Source: Fragilariopsis cylindrus CCMP1102
Lineage: Eukaryota; Bacillariophyta; Bacillariophyceae; Bacillariales; Bacillariaceae
Assembly: GCA_900095095.1 (NCBI GenBank)
Contig: FMBT01000338.1
Span: 124,001 to 188,000 of the forward strand
DNA length: 64,000 bases
Reading direction: 5' to 3'
The translations under genes were made by a program, and so were the position numbers. Below are positions 46,456 through 60,498 of this stretch, in pieces. Each line of letters begins with the position of its first letter. Position 1 is the stretch's first letter. The notes below the pieces were generated by a model. The model saw only the letters and a list, made by a program, of their open reading frames with translations. It made no database searches and was not told the DNA's origin.

Positions 46456-47235
46456 GATTATCGAAGATAGATGGTATAACAAGAAGTAGTAGTAATGAAA
46501 CAACTTCTCTCTCACTTTCGCTCGTTATGATTGATCGATTGAATGATTTATGAAAACAAGTCAAAACTAAAAAAAAGATAAGGAAAAGTTCCTACTATTT
46601 GTACTATAATATACAATGCGTTTTGCCGTCCTACAATATTCTGAAACTATGCATCTCTCTCTCCCTATCGAAATGAAACTTCAATCCTATCGAAATGAAA
46701 TTTCAATCATATACGACAGAAGATATGGGAATCGTGAGTATCTCCGACGACCACCGAGCTTTTGTTGGTTTTTGGTCTTACATTGTACCAAGGAGACTCA
46801 ACGGTTTCTCATGCTATGTGTAAAAAGTATGTGTAAGTATGCGTGATTGGATCTTCGCAAGTTTTTGTTTGTGGTGAAAAAAAAGGAACTACATTTTTCA
46901 ATTTTTCCCATCCCCCGCGTCAAACATGAATGATGAATGACGTCACGCGTTGAACATCACTTTAGTAAGTTATACGCGTGGATGGTGGTAACAAAAGATT
47001 CATTCATTCATTCGACATTCAAGAAATAATGAAATACCGGTAATAGTGTATTTTGTGAAAGACAATCAATCAATCAATCAATCGAAGATCGAAGAGAGTG
47101 AATCGACGAAGGCAACCAAATAAATAATTTTACTGTAGGACAACACCGAGGACGACGACGACTTATTACTACACTTTCAAGCGTTCTTCCAATTATTTAT
47201 TTTCTTCTCCTCGAGGCTTTCATCAAACATCAATC
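46456..47235. other. intergenic, divergent promoter region
   Basis: Between two genes transcribed away from each other. No gene. Contains short CAAT tandem units near 47065-47083. Confidence 0.45.
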
Positions 47236-48689
47236 ATGCCTCGACATCAACATCGTCGTCGTCATCGTCTAGTAACAGTTACTACTGCTGCTTTACTGTT
47301 AGCAATATGCGTATTATGTTGGTCCACGACTTCATTAACAACGAATCGACAGATTGTTGTTGGTGCCTTAGCTATGACAGCACCAGGCAGTAGTATTAGT
47401 GGTAGTATTAGTGGTAGTCAACAACAACGTCGTACAGTACTTGTGACGGGTGGTGCAGGATATATTGGATCACATACCTGTTTAGAATTATTAAAAATAC
47501 CCAATAAGTTATATCGAGTCATTGTCGTGGATAATTTAGATAATTCCTCGGAAGAATCATTAATACGTGTTCGAGAACTTGTAACAGAATATGAAGGTGG
47601 TGGTTCACAACCTTGTGATGCAAATCGTCTTGAATTTCGGAATTGTGATATACGTGATAAAGAAAAATTGAATCAAGGTAAGTTAAGAAACTGATCTCTT
47701 TGTCTTGTCTTCGTTTCCGCGTTTCTTATTTTTGTGTCATCTCACACACACACTAACTATCACTCCTCATCACAAAAATCCAAACAAACACAGTATTAAC
47801 TGAATTTCCTGAGATTGATTCCTGTATTCATTTTGCTGGATTAAAGGCAGTGGGTGAATCCTCCTCCAAACCACTGGATTATTATGATTGTAATATTGGT
47901 GGTACTATTAATTTATTACAGTGTTTAGAAACACATCAAATCAAACATTTTGTGTTTTCCTCCTCTGCCACCGTCTATGGGGAACCAGAAATGTTACCAT
48001 TAATTGAAACTGCTAGACTATCTACCACGAATCCATATGGACGAACGAAATTATTTGTAGAAGAAATATTAAGAGATACCTATGCTTCCTCACCTAAAAG
48101 TTGGAATATCTTAATCTTACGTTACTTTAATCCCATTGGTGCACATGCCAGTGGCCGTATCGGTGAAGATCCACAGGGGATACCAAATAATTTAATGCCA
48201 TTTATTGCACAAGTCTGTGTGGGCCGTCGTCCGGAATTATCAATTTTCGGTAATGATTATGATACACCCGATGGTACCGGTGTACGTGATTATATCCATG
48301 TAGTAGATTTAGCAAAAGGACATGTGGCAGCAATAAATAAATTATATACTACACATGATTTAGGTTGTACAGCTATTAATTTAGGTACCGGACATGGTGT
48401 ATCGGTATTAGAATTAGTCAATGGTATGGTACAAGCAACTGGATCAAAAATCAAATATAAATTTGTCGATCGACGTCCCGGTGATGTTGCATCCATGTAT
48501 GCGGATCCCTCATATGCCAATACATTATTAAATTGGAAAGCAACATTAAATGTACAAAATATGTGTAATGATACATGGAAATGGCAATCGACAAATCCAT
48601 ATGGATATAATGAAGTAGTAAAAGAGGATGATGTGAAAGAGGATGAAGTAAAAGTTGCAATAAAAATTGAAGTAATAGAAACCAAATAA
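47236..48689 (+). CDS. GALE: UDP-glucose 4-epimerase
   Basis: Exons 47236-47677 and 47794-48689, intron 47678-47793 (GTAAGT...CAG), join [13 protein letters not shown] in frame, 445 residues. It is a short-chain dehydrogenase/reductase: [17 protein letters not shown] (NAD binding, about 70-86), [32 protein letters not shown] (Ser), NPYGRTK (Tyr-x3-Lys), [35 protein letters not shown] and [13 protein letters not shown]. It interconverts UDP-glucose and UDP-galactose. The first 65 residues are not part of the enzyme: a basic stretch then [18 protein letters not shown], a signal peptide or signal anchor. This suggests secretory-pathway or, in a diatom, plastid or Golgi location, unlike the cytosolic animal enzyme. 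The C-terminal tail is charged. Confidence 0.95.
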
Positions 48690-49266
48690 ATAAACAATTA
48701 TATTAATCGAGATGTTTGTTTGTCCAAGTGGGAGTTGAGTCAGTCGATTGTTTGTCATGTATGTGTGACGTACCTCGAGGAAGAGTCAGTCTATTGTTGT
48801 AACTAACTAGCTAACTTACTTACTAACTAGCTAGCTAGCTAGCTAGCTCTCACGAATGTATGAACGGTACGATACAGTGCATTTTGAATTCAAAAAGATC
48901 ATTAAATTATTGATAATAATACCTATTTTATATGAATACGCAAAAGTTATTAGGTCTTACAGCATATGTACGCACAGTGCATACATAATCACCATTATTC
49001 TCCCCTCTTCTTCTCGTGATAGTAATACTTTTTGTAAGAAAGGTAGTAGTAGCAGTAGTAGGGGTAGCAGAAGTACGGCCATTTCGATCTTCAATAATTT
49101 TAAAAGATAGTTGACTGTTATTACTTACTTGCTTGGTGTATTATGCGACATATGTTTATTTCTTTATTCCATATATTAGTTATACATATTTATATGAAAG
49201 AAGAACGAGCGACGAGACACGAGGAAATTGACGGCATATTCAACACAAAATAGAGCGATATCATTG
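48690..49266. other. intergenic, converging 3' ends
   Basis: No gene supported. A run of ctag units (about 48820-48848) forms a self-complementary stretch. Confidence 0.45.
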
Positions 49267-51213
49267 TTATTGCCAAACGATAGGTTCTGGACTGAGCTCA
49301 TTCTGACTATCATTAGATTTTGATCCTGTCTTCGGGCCTAATATCTCGTGTTTTACCTCAGCGGATGGTGCAGTATCAGTATGAAAACGTGAGATTTTAT
49401 CGAGAAGGTCGGTAATAAGATTCTTCAAAAACTTGTCCGATATCGTATCGAGTTCGAGTTCATTCATAGCAATGAACGAAGATGCCCAGTCATGTTCGTT
49501 CTCAACTTTACACTCGCGCAGGTGATTACTCATTCTCTCGGCTACAGACTTAAGGATGTTGCAATCTTGTCTTTCAATGATTGCACTGACGATCTTATTT
49601 AAAAGCTCTAGACGACTGCGTCTATCCTCCACAGAAACGCCGTCCTCTGCTATTAGGGATTCAAGTGCTCGATCTGCGTATAATTCAAGAATCCATGTAT
49701 GGTAGTTCTCAGGGTCGATCGATGAAAATGCCATAATATTGGCATCGATAAATTTTGCCATTTCATCTTCGCAGGCTTCGTTTTTTTGTTGCAGTTCCTC
49801 AACCTTTTCCCGCTGCGTTTGCACGGCGAGAAAACAATTCTCCTTTTCGACGTCAAGTTGCTTCTTCAAATTAGAAATTCTCTTCTCTTGATCAACGTTA
49901 TTTTCTTTCATCTTTTCGTTGCGACTAGTTAGATCGATCTTCTCGTCTTTCAACGTGGAAATTTCTTTCTTTTGATCTTTAGTAATTCCTTCTGCTCGTT
50001 TGCGGTTTTCTACCTCCTTTTGATGGTCAAGCGAAGTAACTTGCGTGCTTGCAATGAAAGAAGTCACGAGTGCCTCTTTACCATTCTCTTCTATCTTTCC
50101 TGGAGCCATCAAATGCTCGGAGAGATCCTTGCATTTTCCAATTGCACGATTGAGCTTGATAACGTTCACATCAAGGACATTGTTACTGCTGTTCCATTCC
50201 TCTTTGGATGTAAAAATTGGATGATTTAAATTGCATTTTGCACAATCATCTTCGTAATCAGAGAGAACAAGGAACTTATCAGTCTTACTATCTACTTCGT
50301 TGCTTGTAGACTCCGGAGTGACGTCGTGATCATTATCATCCGTGGCTCCAGCTTTGAGAGACCCATCCTGTGCTTGTATCTTCTGCTCTCTAACAAACAT
50401 TCCAGCAGCAGCAACAGCAGCGTTTGTATCATCGTGATATAGTTCTCTTTCGTTGTCTGTTTCAGTCATCCTCGGTACTCGGTTGACAAAATTTAGTGGA
50501 TATGCTTCTTCTCGTATATCAGGAAATCCTCCATTCGTTCCATAGAAATGAGCAGGCTTCCGTTGGATAAAGGGGTAACTATATCCACGTTTATTAGAAA
50601 CCCCCATCGGATGACATCCAGTACAATCTCGGCAACCACAATGGCCTACTTCTGGGATTCTGATATTCGAATCAATTACGTCTCTGGCAAATTCGCCGGG
50701 TCTGTCTGCAGGGTTTTGATAGCATTTACTCAAATGGGCTCCAATTTTCTTTGCAGCTACTGCTCTTTTATCATCTGCAAGTATTCTAGCTCTCGGAAAA
50801 TGAAAGGGATCAATTAAAAAGCGCCCTTCACATTCTGGGTCCTCCGGTGCTAGTAGTAGCGAGAAGTTACATTCTCTTTTAGTAACTTCGGTTTCGAAGC
50901 CACGTATCTTGTCTCCTGCAGCGTCACTACGTTTCAATTCGAATGACGCTATACAATTCTCGCCCTGCGGACAACAATAAATTTGCCCAACTTTCTTTCG
51001 CTTCTGCCTAGTACGTCGGTTATCTTTAGCTAACGGAGATACGGGGCCATCCGCTTCCTCTGTTTGAGGTTCTCTTGTGCTCGTTTCAGAAGTCGCATCA
51101 TGCGATGATTTCGTTCTCTTGTTACCACCAATTCGAGCCTGCTGCTGATCCTTCCTCTTCCTTAGATAACAACGAGATATTATTTTAAATTGTTTGTTGG
51201 AACGAAAACTAAT
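49267..51213 (-). CDS. Cys-containing coiled-coil protein, 5' end unresolved
   Basis: The frame is open from 51213 to the stop at 49267, but no in-frame ATG lies upstream of a Met about 190 residues in, so a 5' exon is likely missing. A possible acceptor (TCTAAG) places the exon start at 51160. The N-terminal part is basic (RKRKDQQQAR, RRTRQKRKKVGQ), probably nuclear. A Cys region follows with YCCPQGENC and HCGCRDCTGCHP separated by a conserved-looking block (GRFLIDPFHFPRARIL). The C-terminal half has a coiled coil with KDQKKEISTLKDEK and KRISNLKKQLDVEKENC, and a helical end domain. No family is recognised. The start given here is only the limit of the open frame. Confidence 0.65.
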   Translation of the reverse strand: MSFRSNKQFKIISRCYLRKRKDQQQARIGGNKRTKSSHDATSETSTREPQTEEADGPVSPLAKDNRRTRQKRKKVGQIYCCPQGENCIASFELKRSDAAGDKIRGFETEVTKRECNFSLLLAPEDPECEGRFLIDPFHFPRARILADDKRAVAAKKIGAHLSKCYQNPADRPGEFARDVIDSNIRIPEVGHCGCRDCTGCHPMGVSNKRGYSYPFIQRKPAHFYGTNGGFPDIREEAYPLNFVNRVPRMTETDNERELYHDDTNAAVAAAGMFVREQKIQAQDGSLKAGATDDNDHDVTPESTSNEVDSKTDKFLVLSDYEDDCAKCNLNHPIFTSKEEWNSSNNVLDVNVIKLNRAIGKCKDLSEHLMAPGKIEENGKEALVTSFIASTQVTSLDHQKEVENRKRAEGITKDQKKEISTLKDEKIDLTSRNEKMKENNVDQEKRISNLKKQLDVEKENCFLAVQTQREKVEELQQKNEACEDEMAKFIDANIMAFSSIDPENYHTWILELYADRALESLIAEDGVSVEDRRSRLELLNKIVSAIIERQDCNILKSVAERMSNHLRECKVENEHDWASSFIAMNELELDTISDKFLKNLITDLLDKISRFHTDTAPSAEVKHEILGPKTGSKSNDSQNELSPEPIVWQ

Positions 51214-52035
51214 CTAATATATTTAATACGCCTGTCATATGATGTGCAAGTGGTTGCGTGTTTACGTAGGTCAATCGAATGGAAATCGAGATACAAAGAA
51301 TGAATATGAAACATCTTAGAGTAGTGATGTAAGCTTCGAAGTCGAGTAAAGAAACGAAGAAAGATCTCGTGGTAAAATGAAATCAATCATAGTGTTCTTC
51401 CGTCGAAAATAGTGGCAGCTATTAAAAGAACAAGACGTGTCAGGGAAAATGAGAACCACTTGAAGTAGTCTAAATCATGGATATGTATATAAGATTATGG
51501 TTTAAGAAGAGGTGAGTTTCATTGCTTTGGGTCTGTGGAACATTGCAGGTTCTGGAACCTACCCAAAAAAAAAACTAAATGGTGTATTTCGGCCTATAGA
51601 CCTACTCATTGGACCAGACTGGCTCCCAAGATGTTTTAGCCTACCAAATGTTTTCAATCAGATCAAGGGAGCTAAAACCAGTTCTTAGAAGGGAGAATAA
51701 GATAAAAAGAACAGTTTGGTGACGGTACTGTAGAAGGAGGCAGAAGAGGTGCCCGCCTACGTCATGGCTAGCAATGTTGTCAAGACACTTCGTATTAATA
51801 CCGTATGTGTGCACAATAAACATACATGGTGTCATGGGATGTACCAGATGCTAGCTAGCCAATGAGATTGAAGATATGTAGCGACACCGTAGAAAGATGA
51901 TTCGTACAACGACATTAAAATTAATCAATCAATAATGATTGATTTAATCAATGATCTTTCCATAAGGTTACATATAAAATCTGTGTTTCATCCCATCCTT
52001 TTATTGTTTATACCGATGTGAAGATTTGACAGATA
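51214..52035. other. intergenic / possible 5' exon of the coiled-coil gene
   Basis: No clear gene. It may contain the missing first exon of the minus-strand coiled-coil gene; ATG codons near 51386 and 51321 (minus) are candidates, but no donor pairs convincingly. Confidence 0.4.
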
Positions 52036-52555
52036 ATGGAAGAAGGTAAGTTTATCATTGGTTTACCTCTCAACTGAACATTGCATTGACAACGCATTCA
52101 CCGTGTTCTTGTTTATTTATCAGATATGGAAGACAAAAGACAGTAAGCCTCGTCCAGTAACAATGTAACAAAGGTTATTACTCCAGAGCGTAACCCCAGA
52201 GCTGAATCTCGGCGAACCAATCATTTAAGGCGGGATGTAGAAACTTACGATCGAAACGCTGCTGCATTTGCTACAGATGAAGAGAAATATGCATTCATCA
52301 TTCAATGGATAAAGGAGCAAAGCGATGCAAATGGAATTGGTGACCAGCCGTAGTAGTAAAAAGAACAAATCAGCAGCTGCAATCGATGGTGAAGACGGCA
52401 AGAAGTCTTACAAAGAAGATGGCAGTGGTGATAGCACTAAAAGTGATGATAACAGCGACGACAGCGACGATAGAACTGCCCCTGGCTATTCAAGTGATGA
52501 TTGCGATGATGGCGATGACAATGGCGACGAGGGCAGTGATAGTCTAAAGTCGTAA
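52036..52555 (+). CDS. small gene with short introns or a frameshifted gene
   Basis: ATG at 52036 and a donor GTAAGT at 52046 pair with CAG at 52121-52123 (intron 52046-52123). The exon then meets TAA in CAG-TAA at 52141-52146. Removing GTAAGC...CAG (52143-52199, 57 bp) or only 52143-52157 (15 bp) avoids the stop and stays in frame. It continues AESRRTNHLRRDVETYDRN and TDEEKYAFIIQWIKEQSD to TAG at 52351. In the +1 frame an acidic, Ser-rich stretch (GEDGKKSYKEDG, GYSSDDCDDGDDNGDE) continues to 52555 and looks like the natural tail. So this may be a 61-residue gene, or a longer gene broken by a shift near 52330. No family recognised. Confidence 0.4.
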
Positions 52556-52671
52556 ATGAAACAAAAACAAAAAAGTTGTGGTCTGTCTCACGCACACGTG
52601 CATGCAAAATAAATAAAAATGAAAAGTAGTGTGTCAAAGGAAAGATCTCGAACAAAGATTTGGATTTTTAC

Positions 52672-52691
52672 GAATGCGCGCGCGCGCATTC
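52672..52691. repeat. perfect 20-bp GC palindrome
   Basis: gaatgcgcgcgcgcgcattc equals its reverse complement. The alternating CG core is a possible Z-DNA or cruciform former. It lies about 180 bp before the start of the uronate fusion gene. Confidence 0.75.
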
Positions 52692-52868
52692 TTCGTCGCT
52701 CAAAAAACACACACAAAAAGATAAAAAGAAGTAGAAGAAAAAGTGGATCTCGTTCAACGATGACACCATTCACAAAAAACAAATTGAAAATCTCACTACG
52801 ACATAACAAGCATCCCATTGGCGTCAAAGAAGAGTAGACAAAACAAATAAGTTACACTGATATCAATC

Positions 52869-55800
52869 ATGGCCAGTAGCAGCAACGACAACAACGACAA
52901 CAACAAGTCGGAGGAACAGGAACAATTATTATGTGCTTCCACCTTTTTTGCTGGTGACTCTATAGATATAGATGTAATAGATTCCATTTGTATTGGATCG
53001 GGTAGATTCCTTCGTAGTGTATTAGTTCCTGCATTAATTGAATCCAATTATCATCCTGTAATTGTACAAACACGTGGACGATCATTTTTAGATTATACCA
53101 TTAGTGATAATAGTAATAATAACAATAGTAACGAAGATGAAGGGACAGCAGATTCGTCTTATACTTGGACGTATGAAGTTGATACAATCCATTATGATGG
53201 TAAAATAACAATTGATCAAATACCATATTATGGTGCTGGTACATTAGGTAGTAATGAAGGGAAACAAGATGTATTGAATCTTTGTGCTTCCAATTTGAGT
53301 AGTATGCCTATAGAAGAAAATAATAATAATAGTAATAAACCATTCATTATTGGTGTGGGTGTCACAGAAGCTGGATTATCAAGTTCCTCCTCGAAAGCAA
53401 TGATAGATTTATTTGATATATTAGTTGCTTTATCAAAAAATCAAGATTTGTTTCCGTCATCTTCGTCATCTTTGTCATCATCGAACAACGACGAGAACGA
53501 GAAAAAGAAACAAAAACTTGAACACAAGAAACAGCAGCAAACAAAGATATGTATTATTAATACAGATAATGTATCCCAAAATGGGACTGTAATTTGTAAA
53601 TACATGCTGGAATTAGCAACAGACAACGAAGATATGCTAATATTTTTAAATGAATCAGTTGTATTTCATAATACAATGGTTGATCGGATTACATCTCAAC
53701 GACCAGATACACCAAATGGATTAGTTCCTAGAGCTGAACCTATACCAGCAAAAGCATTAGTTATTGAAGATCTTAATGACGATTTACTATTCTCATTCTC
53801 ATCTACAAACAATAAATCTTTAAAAGAAAAATTTGGTGTTATTATTCGTTCTAAACCAAATCAACTTCAAGCTGATATAGCATTAAAATTACGAATTGCG
53901 AATGGTACCCATACTGCTATTGCACATGTTATGGCATTATGTGGTATGACAATGACTGATATATTATCTGATAATGACTCCCATGATTCGAAACTTCTAC
54001 TGAACTATTTAGATTCTTTTTTTTATAATCAAATATTAGTAGGTATTACATCCCACAGTAATAACACTACTCAGGAACTTTGCGATGTAACAAAAGAGGA
54101 TGCTATTGCTGTTTACAATGACTGGAGGAAACGAATAGTACATCAACATTTTGGTTTATCAACATTCTTTATAACACAAAATGGTGCAGCAAAAGGTGGT
54201 ATACGTTTTGGACCAACTATTATTGATTTGATACAATCGAATAAGGTATGTACAGTAATTGTTATAATAGCTTCTTGTAATATAAGAATTTGCGCTCTGT
54301 TTTTTTGTTCGTTTCCTTTCTCCCCTTCTTTCTTTCATGTGTGTCTTTCGGATCACTCAATCTCACATATCATCGTACTCGGAATACCCCCCGCATCTAA
54401 TGATATATTAAAAACAATAGCCCATAACTTGTTCTACGGTATTTGCATTGGCAGCATTAATACGATTCTTAACCCCATATGATGACAAATCGAAGGCTGA
54501 GATGACTGGTATTCACAAAGGATGGTTGGATAAGAATAAGATTAAAAAAATCGACGACCTCAAAAACTATACCGTTGACGATGATGAAGACGATGAGGAT
54601 GAGACTGACGACACTGATGCCAGTACAATTGTATACGCAGATGGTTTATCATATAATTTAAACAAGGGCTGGTATAAATTCCGTTGTGCTTGTACCGTCG
54701 ATGATGATAATAATCTTTTTGATGCTCTTATAGATCAGAAAGGATTTGTTGGTGGTGGGATTGTTGTTGGTGGCAATCCTCAAAAAGGTATGGACTTAGC
54801 TCGAATTCTGGCTATACAAGCCGGTACAAAAAGAACAACATACCTCATAACAGGTGAACTACAACCTTCGGACTATCAATATAATATACATTTATATTTG
54901 AAGGAAAAAGATGGTGGAAATTTATCATCAATTTCACATACATCACAATACAAAGTATTAGTAAAGGCTATTGCAACTGTATTAGCAAGAATGGTTGCTG
55001 ATGATGGGATGATTCATATATTAAAAGAAATGGATTTAGATGCAAATTGTGAAACGTTGATTGATGGTAAGTTAAAGTGGAAATTTTAACGATTTTCTTT
55101 CTGACCATCGACTACAAACAAACCTCCGTCCACGTCACGCCAAGTCCGTATATCCGATCACCGTTACATATTATAATCTCTATAAATAATCTCACAAATG
55201 GTTAAACAAAAACATTCTCTACTTATATGTATTTGTAGGTACTTTGGACGATGCAGATCTTCGTAGTGGTAGTCGCCGTCCTTTACATTATAAAAAGACA
55301 TCAATACCGAATGATAGTCAATTGATGAAGCGTCCGCTCAAAAATGATCGTGATACTATTAGATCGATTGTATTTTCAGAAGTTTCATCAGCCGTTGCAA
55401 TTGATTTACACACGCATTTACTTCCACCAACACATGGTGCGTTGTGTTTATGGGGTATTGATGAGTTATTAACGTACCATTACTTAGTTGCTGAATACTT
55501 TATAACAGCACCACCGTCAATAATTCCGGAACAATTTTATGCAAAAAGTAAACAGCAACAGGCTGAGATAATTTGGAAAGCATTATTCATTGATCGGTCA
55601 CCTATTTCTGAAGCGTGCCGTGGTGTCATCACGGTCCCTGTGACACTTGGTCTCAAGGATGAAATTAGAAATCGTGATTTAGATGCAGTACGAAAATTCT
55701 ATACAAGTTTTCGTAATGATGGTATTGCAGGAGCTGAAAGATTTTCACAATTGGTATACGATAAAGCTGGTGTGAAGTATGCAGTTATGACCAATATTCC

Positions 55801-56767
55801 TTTTGAACCTACCGAAACACAACATTGGAGACCAACACCTAAGGAATATTCAAATAATTATCGATCAGCTTGTCGTGTTGATCCGTTACTTGCTGGGAAT
55901 AAAATAGTTGTTGAAAATGCATTAAAAGCAGCGGGGTATAACAACACGATTGATGGTGCAAAACAATTTTTACATGATTGGTGTGATACAATGAAACCAG
56001 AATATATGATGGCATCTACTCCACATGATTTTGTTATGCCCGAAGATAAGGGTTCTACTGGTGGTATGGTGGATAATAGTAGTAAGACCGGTGTAAATGA
56101 AGATGCAATGAAGGTGCCGTTCGCTTTCACCGATCCTGTCTCATCATTAAATAATTGTGGTGGTGGTGGTGGAGAATCATGTGGAGGTGAAGAATTAGCA
56201 AGTGTCATTGATGAAAATAGTGATTTTTTAAGTGAGGTCTTAATGAAAGTTTGTGAAGAAAGAGATATACCACTTGCATTAAAGATTGGTGCACATCGAA
56301 AATTGAATCCAAGGTTACTGGATGCTGGAGATGGTGTGGTTGCATTTGCAGATGGTAGTATGTTAGCACGTCTTTGTACACGATTTCCGACTGTACGATT
56401 TTTAGCAACATTCCTATCAAGAACAAATCAACATGAGGCATGTGTCCTGGCAACGAAGTTTCGTAATTTGCATCTATATGGTTGTTGGTGGTTTTGTAAT
56501 AATCCATCAATAATAAAAGAAATAACATCAATGAGAATAGAAATGTTAGGTACAGCATTTACAGCACAACATTCGGATAGTCGTGTTTTAGATCAACTTT
56601 TATATAAATGGCCACATTCCAGAGCAGTAATTGCATCTGTTTTAACAGAAGAATATACAAAACTAATAGAATCTGGATGGTCATTAACAAGAGGAGAACT
56701 TCGACGTGATATACAACGATTATTCGGATCGAGTTATGAAGAATTCATGTCTAAAAGTTTGGTATGA
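52869..56767 (+). CDS. fusion of mannitol-dehydrogenase-family uronate reductase and uronate isomerase
   Basis: Three exons: 52869-54245, 54421-55066 and 55239-56767. Introns 54246-54420 (GTATGT...TAG) and 55067-55238 (GTAAGT...TAG) join in frame as SNK|PITCSTVFALAALIRF and LIDG|TLDDADL, 1183 residues. Residues about 25-670 are a mannitol dehydrogenase/fructuronate-tagaturonate reductase: GSGRFLRSVLVP (NAD site), INTDNVSQNGTVI, FHNTMVDRIT and the catalytic pattern K340-x4-N345-x2-H348 (KLRIANGTH). Residues about 715-1183 are a uronate isomerase: metal-binding DLHTHL (His732, His734), ALKIGAHRKLNP, GCWWFCNNP and HSDSRVL (Asp1121, Arg1123). In bacteria UxaC makes fructuronate or tagaturonate and UxuB/UxaB reduces it. 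Both sites look intact, so the protein could do both steps. Poly-N, poly-S and poly-D inserts are host-typical. No targeting signal is obvious. Confidence 0.9.
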
Positions 56768-57657: not shown

Positions 57658-58401
57658 CTTGATTTGTTTTTCTTTCTTTCGATACAAATATTAACAATTA
57701 CGGTATAGTAGAGACGATAAGGTCTATGAGATGTTATTGTTATTGTGATTGTGTTGTCGTTGTCGTTGTCGTTGTCTGGTTGTTTGTTGTTTTGTCGTTC
57801 TTGACGCAACATCCATTACACCCGCTGCAAAATTAAATACGCGCGGTTCGATTCGCACGAGAAGCAAAATCCATAACGTCGGAATCACAAAATTATTATC
57901 TAATTGAAATTTGTAGCTACTAGTCATCGACGGGTTCACGAACGAGACGATATTATAGCCCTGTCTTTGTCCTTTCTCTCTCTTTTAAATACCGAAATAG
58001 GTTCTTCCTTGAGATTGATTCGATTCAAACCATCTTTTATCGCATCTCTCCTTTTACTCATTGAGAGATTCAACAATTTTTTTTCGACGACGACAATCGT
58101 TTATTCATTCGTGATTTGATTCAGTCCCATTTACATATCATCTTGCTGATACTGTAGTATCATACTGTATCAAAGGTATGTTGTTGGATCATTATTATAC
58201 CACGTCATAATTATGTACGACTCAAGAAAAAAAAGAATTCTCTTTTTTTTTCACATGACAGCAGAAATGAGTTCTGATATGGATTTTAATTCCGTATTTT
58301 TTACTCACCTTTTGTCTTTCCTTTTTTTATGTGTCCAGTAACTTAGATCATATTCTTTTTATTCTTTAGAGTATTCTCATCTTCCGATTCCTTCAGCCAG
58401 C
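57658..58401. other. intergenic, divergent promoter region
   Basis: Between the minus-strand NDUFA1-like gene and plus-strand glycerol-3-phosphate dehydrogenase. No gene seen. A GTTGTC tandem run lies at about 57752-57775. Confidence 0.45.
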
Positions 58402-60498
58402 ATGTCATTGTCTCAAAAATGCTCACGTACCGGTACTTATGGTCAAGAACAAGAAAGCTTTCTCAATAATTCGAAACAAACTGACCAACAACAACAAGAA
58501 GCAAGACTTAAGTTAAACAATGCACCGAACATCAATCAGAACTCAGTTCCACCAGTTCGACACAACATAAAATCATCCTCCGATACTAAACATCAAAATC
58601 AAAATCATAATCACAAGAAGAAACGATCACAATCAGTATCAATATCCCCATTCACTTTGTCTAAATCTCTCATATTACAAGTATTACTCCTATCCGATCC
58701 ACAACAAACATCAACTGCAACAGCATCCTCATCATCGTCATCCTCGCCAACATCAACATCAACACAACCATCATCATCAATGTGTGGCTCTCCTCACTCT
58801 TCTACTACTACTGCCTCGTCATCGTCATTATTATTATGTAGTACACCAAATCCACAAAATAGTTCGGATCAACTTGAAAAAGTATGTATTATTGGTAGTG
58901 GTAATTGGGGATCCGCAATATCAACTATTATTGGACGAAATTGTATGAAATTACCATTTTATGAAAATCAAGTAAATATGTGGGTATTTGAAGAAACTGT
59001 TACCGACACATCAACAAATGAAGAACGTAAATTAACGGATATTATTAATGACACACATGAAAATGTGAAATATTTGCCGGGTATTATCTTACCATCGAAT
59101 ATTGTGGCGGTACCTGATTTAGCAACAGCCTGTCAGGATGCAACATTATTAATATTTGTGTTACCACATCAATTTTTACCGAAATTATTACCAATCATAC
59201 GAAAATCCTCTCATCCATCCTGTCGAGGTGTATCACTTATTAAAGGTATTGGTAAGTTTTTGTTTATACCTTGTAATTTTGAATTGAATTGAATTTGAAT
59301 TGAATTGAGTTGAATTGTCGCTACTGTGACAATCGTACACAACATAAATAACAACTTTCTCATTAGTTTTCTGCTGCTACTGCTTTTTTTTGTCTGTGTC
59401 TCCTTCCGTCCAATGACTATAACAGATTTTGATGAAAAAACTGGACAACCAATCCTTATATCAAAAGGTATTGCTGATGCAATGAGATCTGGAAAAAATG
59501 ATTATTTTCCATGTGGTGTATTAATGGGTGCCAATGTTGCCTCCGAAGTGGCGGAAGGACAAATGTGTGAATCCACATTAGCATCTAATTTTGGTCAACC
59601 CGCCGATGAAATGACACGTCAATTATTTGATTCTCCTCCCTATTTTCGTGTCCAACATATCACCGATGTGGCTGGTGCTGAAGTATGTGGTGCACTGAAA
59701 AATGTCTTTGCATTAGGTGCCGGCTTCATTGATGGAGTTGGATTAGGTGGTAATACAAAAGCTGCATTGTTACGAGTTGGATTACTTGAAATGGCGAAAT
59801 TTTGTCATATGTTCTTTGATGGTATTCACGATGATACATTTACAGAATCATGTGGTATGGCTGATCTTATTACGGTAAGTTTCATGTTCATGTTCGTTTT
59901 TCGTGCTGCTTTTGCTACATCATTGCTGGTGTGTCGCCACTACGTTATGATGTTCCGTCGTTGATTTTTATCTCACTCTTTCGTTATTTTCTTCTTTATT
60001 CCATTCCTTTCCTCTTAGACATGCTACGGCGGTCGCAACCGAAAATGTGCAGAAGCATTCGCACGTGAACGCTACAGCAAAAAAAGTACTACTACTATTC
60101 CTACTCAAGACAACTACGATGATGATAAGTCTAAGTGTGAAGAATTATGGGCACGAATTGAAGTTGATGTGTTGAAAGGACAAAAATTACAAGGTACTAT
60201 TACAGCACGGGATGCATACAAATTAATTTGTTCTCGTAACGTACTTGATGAATTTCCATTAATTAAGGTCATATACGAAATTTCATATGAAGGTAAACCA
60301 GTTGAAAGTATCATTGAAGGTATCCATGTTGTTTCATCGTCGCCGTCGTCATCGTTTCGACGAACACCACAAGGACATCAACAACAACAATACCAACGAC
60401 AAGCGCATGGACATATGGATTTACATGATCGTGCCACCACATTTCCACCTCATTATCAACCACCACCACCACCACCGACCCATTCATCGCATCTTTAA
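58402..60498 (+). CDS. GPD1: NAD-dependent glycerol-3-phosphate dehydrogenase
   Basis: Three exons: 58402-59251, 59426-59874 and 60019-60498. Introns 59252-59425 and 59875-60018 (GTAAGT...CAG/TAG) join in frame as KGI|DFDEKTG and LIT|TCYGGRN, 592 residues. NAD motif [12 protein letters not shown] sits at about 163-174, then [10 protein letters not shown]-type, [15 protein letters not shown], catalytic Lys in [28 protein letters not shown] and [19 protein letters not shown]. It reduces dihydroxyacetone phosphate to glycerol 3-phosphate for lipid and glycerol synthesis. The first 155 residues are Ser/Thr/Gln-rich and unconserved, with no clear signal peptide. The C-terminal 50 residues are His/Pro/Gln-rich and also extra. 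The core is about the usual 350-380 residues. Confidence 0.95.

Follow-up and report, generated by a model that had tools for sequence, protein, structure and literature searches.

A probable reductase-isomerase fusion for uronate metabolism encoded by a single gene of the diatom Fragilariopsis cylindrus

A 64,000-nucleotide stretch of the genome of the diatom Fragilariopsis cylindrus CCMP1102 (assembly GCA_900095095.1, contig FMBT01000338.1, positions 124,001 to 188,000 of the forward strand; hereafter the window, in whose coordinates positions are given) carries a candidate gene for a bifunctional enzyme of uronate metabolism. Its N-terminal half is related to the long-chain polyol/uronate dehydrogenases, and its C-terminal half to the uronate isomerase BH0493 of Bacillus halodurans. 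The explanation that we favor as a whole, and consider probable, is a bifunctional protein whose isomerase and then reductase perform consecutive steps on a uronate.

In this scheme, one nuclear gene would encode a two-enzyme protein. The C-terminal half would turn D-galacturonate into D-tagaturonate and would probably also turn D-glucuronate into D-fructuronate; the N-terminal half would reduce the resulting keto-uronate to D-altronate (D-mannonate) with reduced nicotinamide adenine dinucleotide or its phosphate, NAD(P)H. The single transcript, the two activities, their substrate, direction and cofactor, and any advantage of being fused are what we infer from the features described below.

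Gene structure

The gene comprises three exons on the + strand, 52869-54245, 54421-55066, and 55239-56767, whose spliced translation gives 1183 codons and a stop. Both introns, of 175 and 172 nucleotides, have GT-AG ends. These are the coordinates, exon number, and protein length given in a preliminary description of this DNA, and the residues singled out there (K340, N345, H348, H732, H734, D1121, and R1123) all occupy the positions assigned to them. One + strand frame runs for 537 codons without a stop, far longer than chance would allow: when this stretch was simulated 500 times with a first-order Markov model, no frame exceeded 161. The features of the gene are as follows.

52869-54245, + strand: exon 1, residues 1-459, with the Rossmann domain and the start of the C-terminal domain of a long-chain polyol/uronate dehydrogenase (spliced translation; PF01232)
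52995-53015, + strand: motif G43-x-G45-x3-R49, in columns invariant with Escherichia coli UxaB and UxuB and a Poribacteria reductase
53886-53912, + strand: motif K340-x4-N345-x2-H348, invariant in the same comparison
54246-54420, + strand: intron 1, 175 nucleotides, GTATGT...TAG (splice signals)
54421-55066, + strand: exon 2, with the remainder of the reductase C-terminal domain and an extra stretch (about residues 540-630) that has no Pfam match (translation, alignment)
55067-55238, + strand: intron 2, 172 nucleotides, GTAAGT...TAG, exactly at the boundary of the halves (splice signals)
55087-55089, + strand: stop codon met when intron 2 is unspliced (open reading frame 54421-55089)
55239-56767, + strand: exon 3, with the linker and the BH0493-type uronate isomerase (translation; 323 bits to 2pnk/2q08)
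55239-55324, + strand: linker between the two domains, its codon use resembling that of coding sequence (log-likelihood ratio for codons 8.3 bits)
55325-55327, + strand: first Met codon of exon 3, a possible start were the isomerase a separate gene (sequence)
55409-55417, + strand: motif H732-x-H734, kept in 81/81 BH0493-type rows
56051-56212, + strand: insert, residues 946-999, hardly represented among the bacterial rows and predicted to be disordered (alignment, predicted model)
56570-56584, + strand: motif H1119-S-D1121-x-R1123, kept in 81/81 BH0493-type rows

The isomerase half

The C-terminal half matches BH0493 (2pnk/2q08) nearly end to end with a score of 323 bits and an identity of 44-45% (45% pairwise). 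Its relatives were taken from a scan of a genome collection, of which the best 80 of 311, bacterial by their titles, were aligned with BH0493 to give 81 BH0493-type rows. In this alignment 92 columns are near-invariant (at least 97.5% conserved), and the diatom protein keeps 84 of them, including H732, H734, H755, Y756, R887, D889, H1073, H1119, D1121, and R1123. The eight changes are L886C, A932M, P1011K, M1023K, R1080T, F1088Y, K1146E, and F1174Y. The HxH motif, which we take to be the metal site (H732-x-H734), and the HSDxR motif, presumably the active site (H1119-S-D1121-x-R1123), are present in the diatom protein and in all 81 rows.

A structure predicted with 31 of the 80 relatives has a predicted local distance difference test score (pLDDT) of 85 and a predicted template modeling score of 0.84, with a disordered insert of 54 residues. 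Its best match in the PDB is 3hka (E 1.4e-36; template modeling (TM) score 0.94 by target), the structure of BH0493 with zinc and D-fructuronate. PF02614, the UxaC profile, matches neither the isomerase half nor the pieces of BH0493; a search with it of the whole F. cylindrus genome (67.9 Mb, 818 contigs) was also empty, the control being found in 7 of 14 genomes. The PF02614 profile thus rules out the label of canonical UxaC that this half had been given, while its placement as a uronate isomerase stands: judged by sequence and predicted fold, it belongs to the BH0493 type of uronate isomerases, within the amidohydrolase superfamily, with that activity predicted.

The gene neighborhoods of the 80 bacterial relatives support a uronate role for this isomerase family. 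A UxaE-type tagaturonate epimerase is encoded just upstream on the same strand in 7 of the 80 loci, and one Bacillota genome (L034:398-6236) has a compact order of long-chain reductase, altronate/galactarate-type dehydratase, UxaE-type epimerase, and BH0493-type isomerase. Neighbors were assigned by family models for chosen genes only, in a scan of 10 proteins from L011, L015, L024, and L034 and a second, partly overlapping scan of 10 proteins from L014, L024, L034, L035, and L057.

The reductase half

In the N-terminal half, the mannitol-dehydrogenase Rossmann domain PF01232 scores just above its cut-off (29.2 versus 27 bits). Among NCBIfam models, all far under their cut-offs, tagaturonate reductase ranks highest at 46.6 bits, followed by arabinitol 4-dehydrogenase (30.0) and fructuronate reductase (21.3). 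Profile comparison gives 95.7% with UxaB/UxuB and 96.4% with two Poribacteria reductases. Pairwise, eight reductases from the Poribacteria phylum score 49-61 bits, UxuB 46, and UxaB 36. When the protein is aligned with UxaB, UxuB, and one Poribacteria protein, G43, G45, R49, K340, N345, and H348 are invariant; they belong to what we take to be the nucleotide-binding motif (G43-x-G45-x3-R49) and the catalytic motif (K340-x4-N345-x2-H348). Exon 1 folded alone reached a pLDDT of 31.6, which is unusable for the reductase structure, and a search of the PDB, whose query profile contained the E. coli enzymes, yielded no independent information on the diatom reductase. From its sequence, this half is a divergent long-chain polyol/uronate dehydrogenase. 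The homologies and conserved columns thus agree with the earlier proposal of an intron-containing gene with two enzyme halves for sequential uronate steps, both keeping their active-site motifs.

Bacterial relatives and origin

That the gene might reflect the transfer of a bacterial operon was not borne out. A reductase of the same superfamily was found, by family scan and hidden Markov model, in the fetched flanks of at least 1 of the 80 bacterial isomerase loci (L034), a lower bound because 33 of the 80 loci span less than 11 kb. The diatom's own reductase sequence and motif found no reductase neighbor in the 80 loci, a search too insensitive to be informative, as it overlooked L034. The two halves have G+C contents of 0.34 and 0.37 overall and of 0.23 and 0.21 at third positions. 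Six neighboring genes span 0.33-0.42 and 0.20-0.37, respectively, so both halves fall within the local range and give no compositional sign of recent transfer.

Of 84 genomes assigned to the Poribacteria phylum, 54 contain a match to the reductase half (E <= 0.001), a weak one even at best (30.5 bits). The genomes behind 28 of the 80 isomerase loci, which belong to several phyla, gave such a match in 1 case. None of 392 Planctomycetota genomes matched, which is uninformative for want of a positive control. No isomerase match occurs in eight stretches of about 14-19 kb around Poribacteria reductases. In a tree of 82 isomerase rows, the diatom sequence is a very long branch (1.71 changes per column) beside Planctomycetota; this placement is untrustworthy, and a donor of the isomerase is therefore not resolvable by the tree. 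A search of viral contigs and plasmids, which did not cover the phage collection, found no relatives.

A second copy

Another contig of the genome, C718 (L089:1-10000), is collinear with 46941-55866 of the window, with gaps, at 83.5-90% DNA identity, and its copy of the gene ends inside the isomerase half. Such a collinear stretch at this identity is likely to be a diverged haplotype or a duplicate. For the in-frame parts, the ratio of nonsynonymous to synonymous substitution rates (dN/dS) between the copies is 0.38 in the reductase (593 codons) and 0.35 in the isomerase (167 codons), after removal of blocks below 60% local identity, which lowers dN.

Alternative explanations

Several results weigh against a bifunctional protein and are considered here with the explanations that they favor. 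Intron 2 lies exactly between the halves, each of which is plausible as a lone gene; the reductase frame ends at 55089 if the intron is retained; and Met codon 55325 stands in exon 3 just ahead of the isomerase homology. These three features make two separate genes a serious rival. There would then be two adjacent genes on the same strand: the reductase frame would run on for about seven codons past the start of intron 2, and the isomerase would begin at Met 55325. A stop between the halves was looked for: the spliced frame has none, and only the unspliced frame has the one at 55089, so the joining of exon 2 to exon 3 in the mRNA would depend on the splicing of intron 2. One argument for a single gene is the coding-like linker. 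The 84 nucleotides before Met 55325 have a codon score of 8.3 bits in the fusion frame and of -10.3 and -33.6 bits in the other frames, with a coding training set that includes both halves of the gene and leaves out the linker. This score was reached by 66 of 3049 overlapping noncoding segments, and 46% of 1070 coding segments scored no higher. On the other side of the balance, all 66 are among the 710 segments that are free of stops, and a 29-codon open frame by itself would arise with a probability of 0.18, given how often stops occur in the local intergenic DNA. A consensus donor with a frame-joining acceptor was rare among 20000 simulated spacers (0.9%, or 0.2% when the linker had to be no shorter than here), which again argues against two genes. 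Also against two genes, the sole linker substitution between the window and C718 copies (55315) is, as read by eye, synonymous, although the C718 copy also lacks three linker bases. Two genes would also fit less well with the conservation, in two stramenopiles, of the multifunctional "Mannitol dehydrogenase" listed in PMC2705460, if that is the same protein. The copies show 8 substitutions and 2 indels in the 172 nucleotides of intron 2, and 4 substitutions in 117 nucleotides of exon 2, so conservation does not decide between one gene and two. On balance, we consider the fusion of both halves into one predicted protein very likely, and two genes quite unlikely.

The reductase half might instead take a different substrate (a polyol, a keto-gluconate, or some other ulosonate), in which case the halves would not perform consecutive steps. 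Its identity to aligned relatives is 22-27%, arabinitol and mannitol dehydrogenases are also matched, and about 90 residues of its C-terminal domain (roughly 540-630) have no counterpart in three aligned bacterial enzymes and no Pfam match. The mannitol-dehydrogenase family assigned to this half in the preliminary description is upheld by PF01232 and by the K-x4-N-x2-H motif, with the qualification that the protein is divergent: the C-terminal domain PF08125 (Mannitol_dh_C) stays below its cut-off (11.8 versus 30.7 bits), as does the curated tagaturonate reductase model NF002969 (46.6 of 359 bits). Part of the region that fails PF08125 is nevertheless aligned in the UxaB/UxuB profile comparison. 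The coupling to a uronate isomerase argues against another substrate, as does the finding that the best named model is tagaturonate reductase. The preference is clearer for a Poribacteria relative (L116:6660-8117, the one relative scored), with 113.6 bits for that model and 49.6 for the next, the cut-off of 359 again unreached. Another substrate therefore seems to us unlikely. It is also conceivable that the gene is decaying and the enzyme no longer needed. Frame shifts and stops interrupt both halves of the C718 copy, whose residue 734, within a shifted stretch, reads T; furthermore, neither PF03786 (UxuA) nor PF04295 (UxaA) dehydratases were found in the genome by an exon-by-exon search, which can miss split genes and whose controls were each found in 5 of 14 genomes. 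Yet the window copy has an uninterrupted reading frame and intact motifs, the interruptions of C718 are close to a contig end and may reflect either sequence errors or real decay, and the dN/dS values given above, lowered as they are by block removal, also speak against decay, which we regard as very unlikely. The bifunctional reductase-isomerase stays our preferred explanation.

Pathway context and neighboring genes

We suggest, tentatively and with some doubt, that a eukaryotic isomerase-type hexuronate route runs through one bifunctional reductase-isomerase across stramenopiles, and that its altronate or mannonate either passes to a dehydratase outside the UxaA and UxuA families or is an end product. 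If the fused protein works as proposed, some algae would use a bacterial-type isomerase route within one protein to start breaking down uronates or to recycle uronate-containing polymers of their own. The earlier proposal that the keto-uronate is passed within the protein found no support.

The enolase superfamily has 13 matches on nine contigs of the genome. The one that was looked at, a single exon (L095, contig C679), scores 114 bits with an unnamed family member, 102 with rhamnonate dehydratases, and 33 with a mannonate dehydratase, and by its sequence is rhamnonate-dehydratase-like; a mannonate dehydratase of the enolase type may be among the other matches. An enolase-superfamily gene is matched on two contigs, at L095 (C679) and L094 (C717).

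An inositol-oxygenase-like protein (L098:3519-5201, contig C184) scores 107.5 bits against a cut-off of 25. Its HD and GHDEY stretches, which we take to hold the ligand residues of inositol oxygenase, read HG and TSSEY; because of these replacements it was not counted as an active source of glucuronate, and perhaps it is not a normal inositol oxygenase.

A UDP-glucose/galactose 4-epimerase gene (UDP, uridine diphosphate) lies about 4 kb upstream of the fusion gene (47236-48689, + strand; intron near 47679-47794, read by eye), which may be a chance neighborhood. Just downstream is a nicotinamide adenine dinucleotide (NAD)-dependent glycerol-3-phosphate dehydrogenase gene with at least two exons (58342-59961, + strand). 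Elsewhere in the genome, the light-harvesting family PF00504 has 104 matches, and one of these proteins starts with an ASAFAP-like sequence, presumably a plastid signal, as would be expected of a photosynthetic stramenopile.

Comparison with known systems

Among the matches listed in a literature search by word beginnings, no title or start of an abstract names the fusion, and the part of PMC11468063 available contains nothing on a reductase-isomerase fusion. In the portion of a paper on Phaeodactylum carbohydrate metabolism that was accessible (PMC2173943), D-glucuronic acid is a product of inositol breakdown, and the words "uronate" and "mannitol" are absent.

The closest known system is BH0493, which the accessible text of PMC2684587 describes as an amidohydrolase-superfamily uronate isomerase that converts D-galacturonate to D-tagaturonate. 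The isomerase half resembles it throughout in sequence, predicted fold, and motifs; the diatom protein differs from it in its predicted fusion behind a reductase, in its eukaryotic host, and in the disordered insert. The canonical UxaC structures (1j5s, 2q01, and 3iac) distantly share the predicted isomerase fold (TM 0.64-0.71 by target), whereas their identity to the isomerase half is 13-15% and the PF02614 profile has no match there.

For the reductase half, E. coli UxaB and UxuB have the GxGx3R and K-x4-N-x2-H motifs in common with the diatom protein, which differs from them in its 22-23% identity, its extra loops, and the unreached cut-offs of the named families. In E. coli, where the steps of the uronate pathway are those given in part of a review (PMC6353982), isomerase and reductase are separate proteins, whereas a single protein is predicted here. 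Nothing in the sets searched matches the reductase half better than the tagaturonate-reductase-like proteins of Poribacteria, which reach 61 bits pairwise; their genes, unlike the predicted fusion, are separate from the isomerase.

A precedent for the architecture may come from a 2009 study of fusion proteins in oomycetes. Among the novel multifunctional proteins in Table 2 of PMC2705460 is Ps131558/Tp264628, a "Mannitol dehydrogenase" whose domains keep the same order in Phytophthora sojae and in the diatom Thalassiosira pseudonana; in the accessible main text the partner domain is unnamed, "mannitol" occurs once, and "uronate" nowhere. Perhaps, and this is a guess, Ps131558/Tp264628 is the same reductase-isomerase fusion. 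If so, the architecture would be old in stramenopiles and would already have been listed, without its second enzyme being identified.

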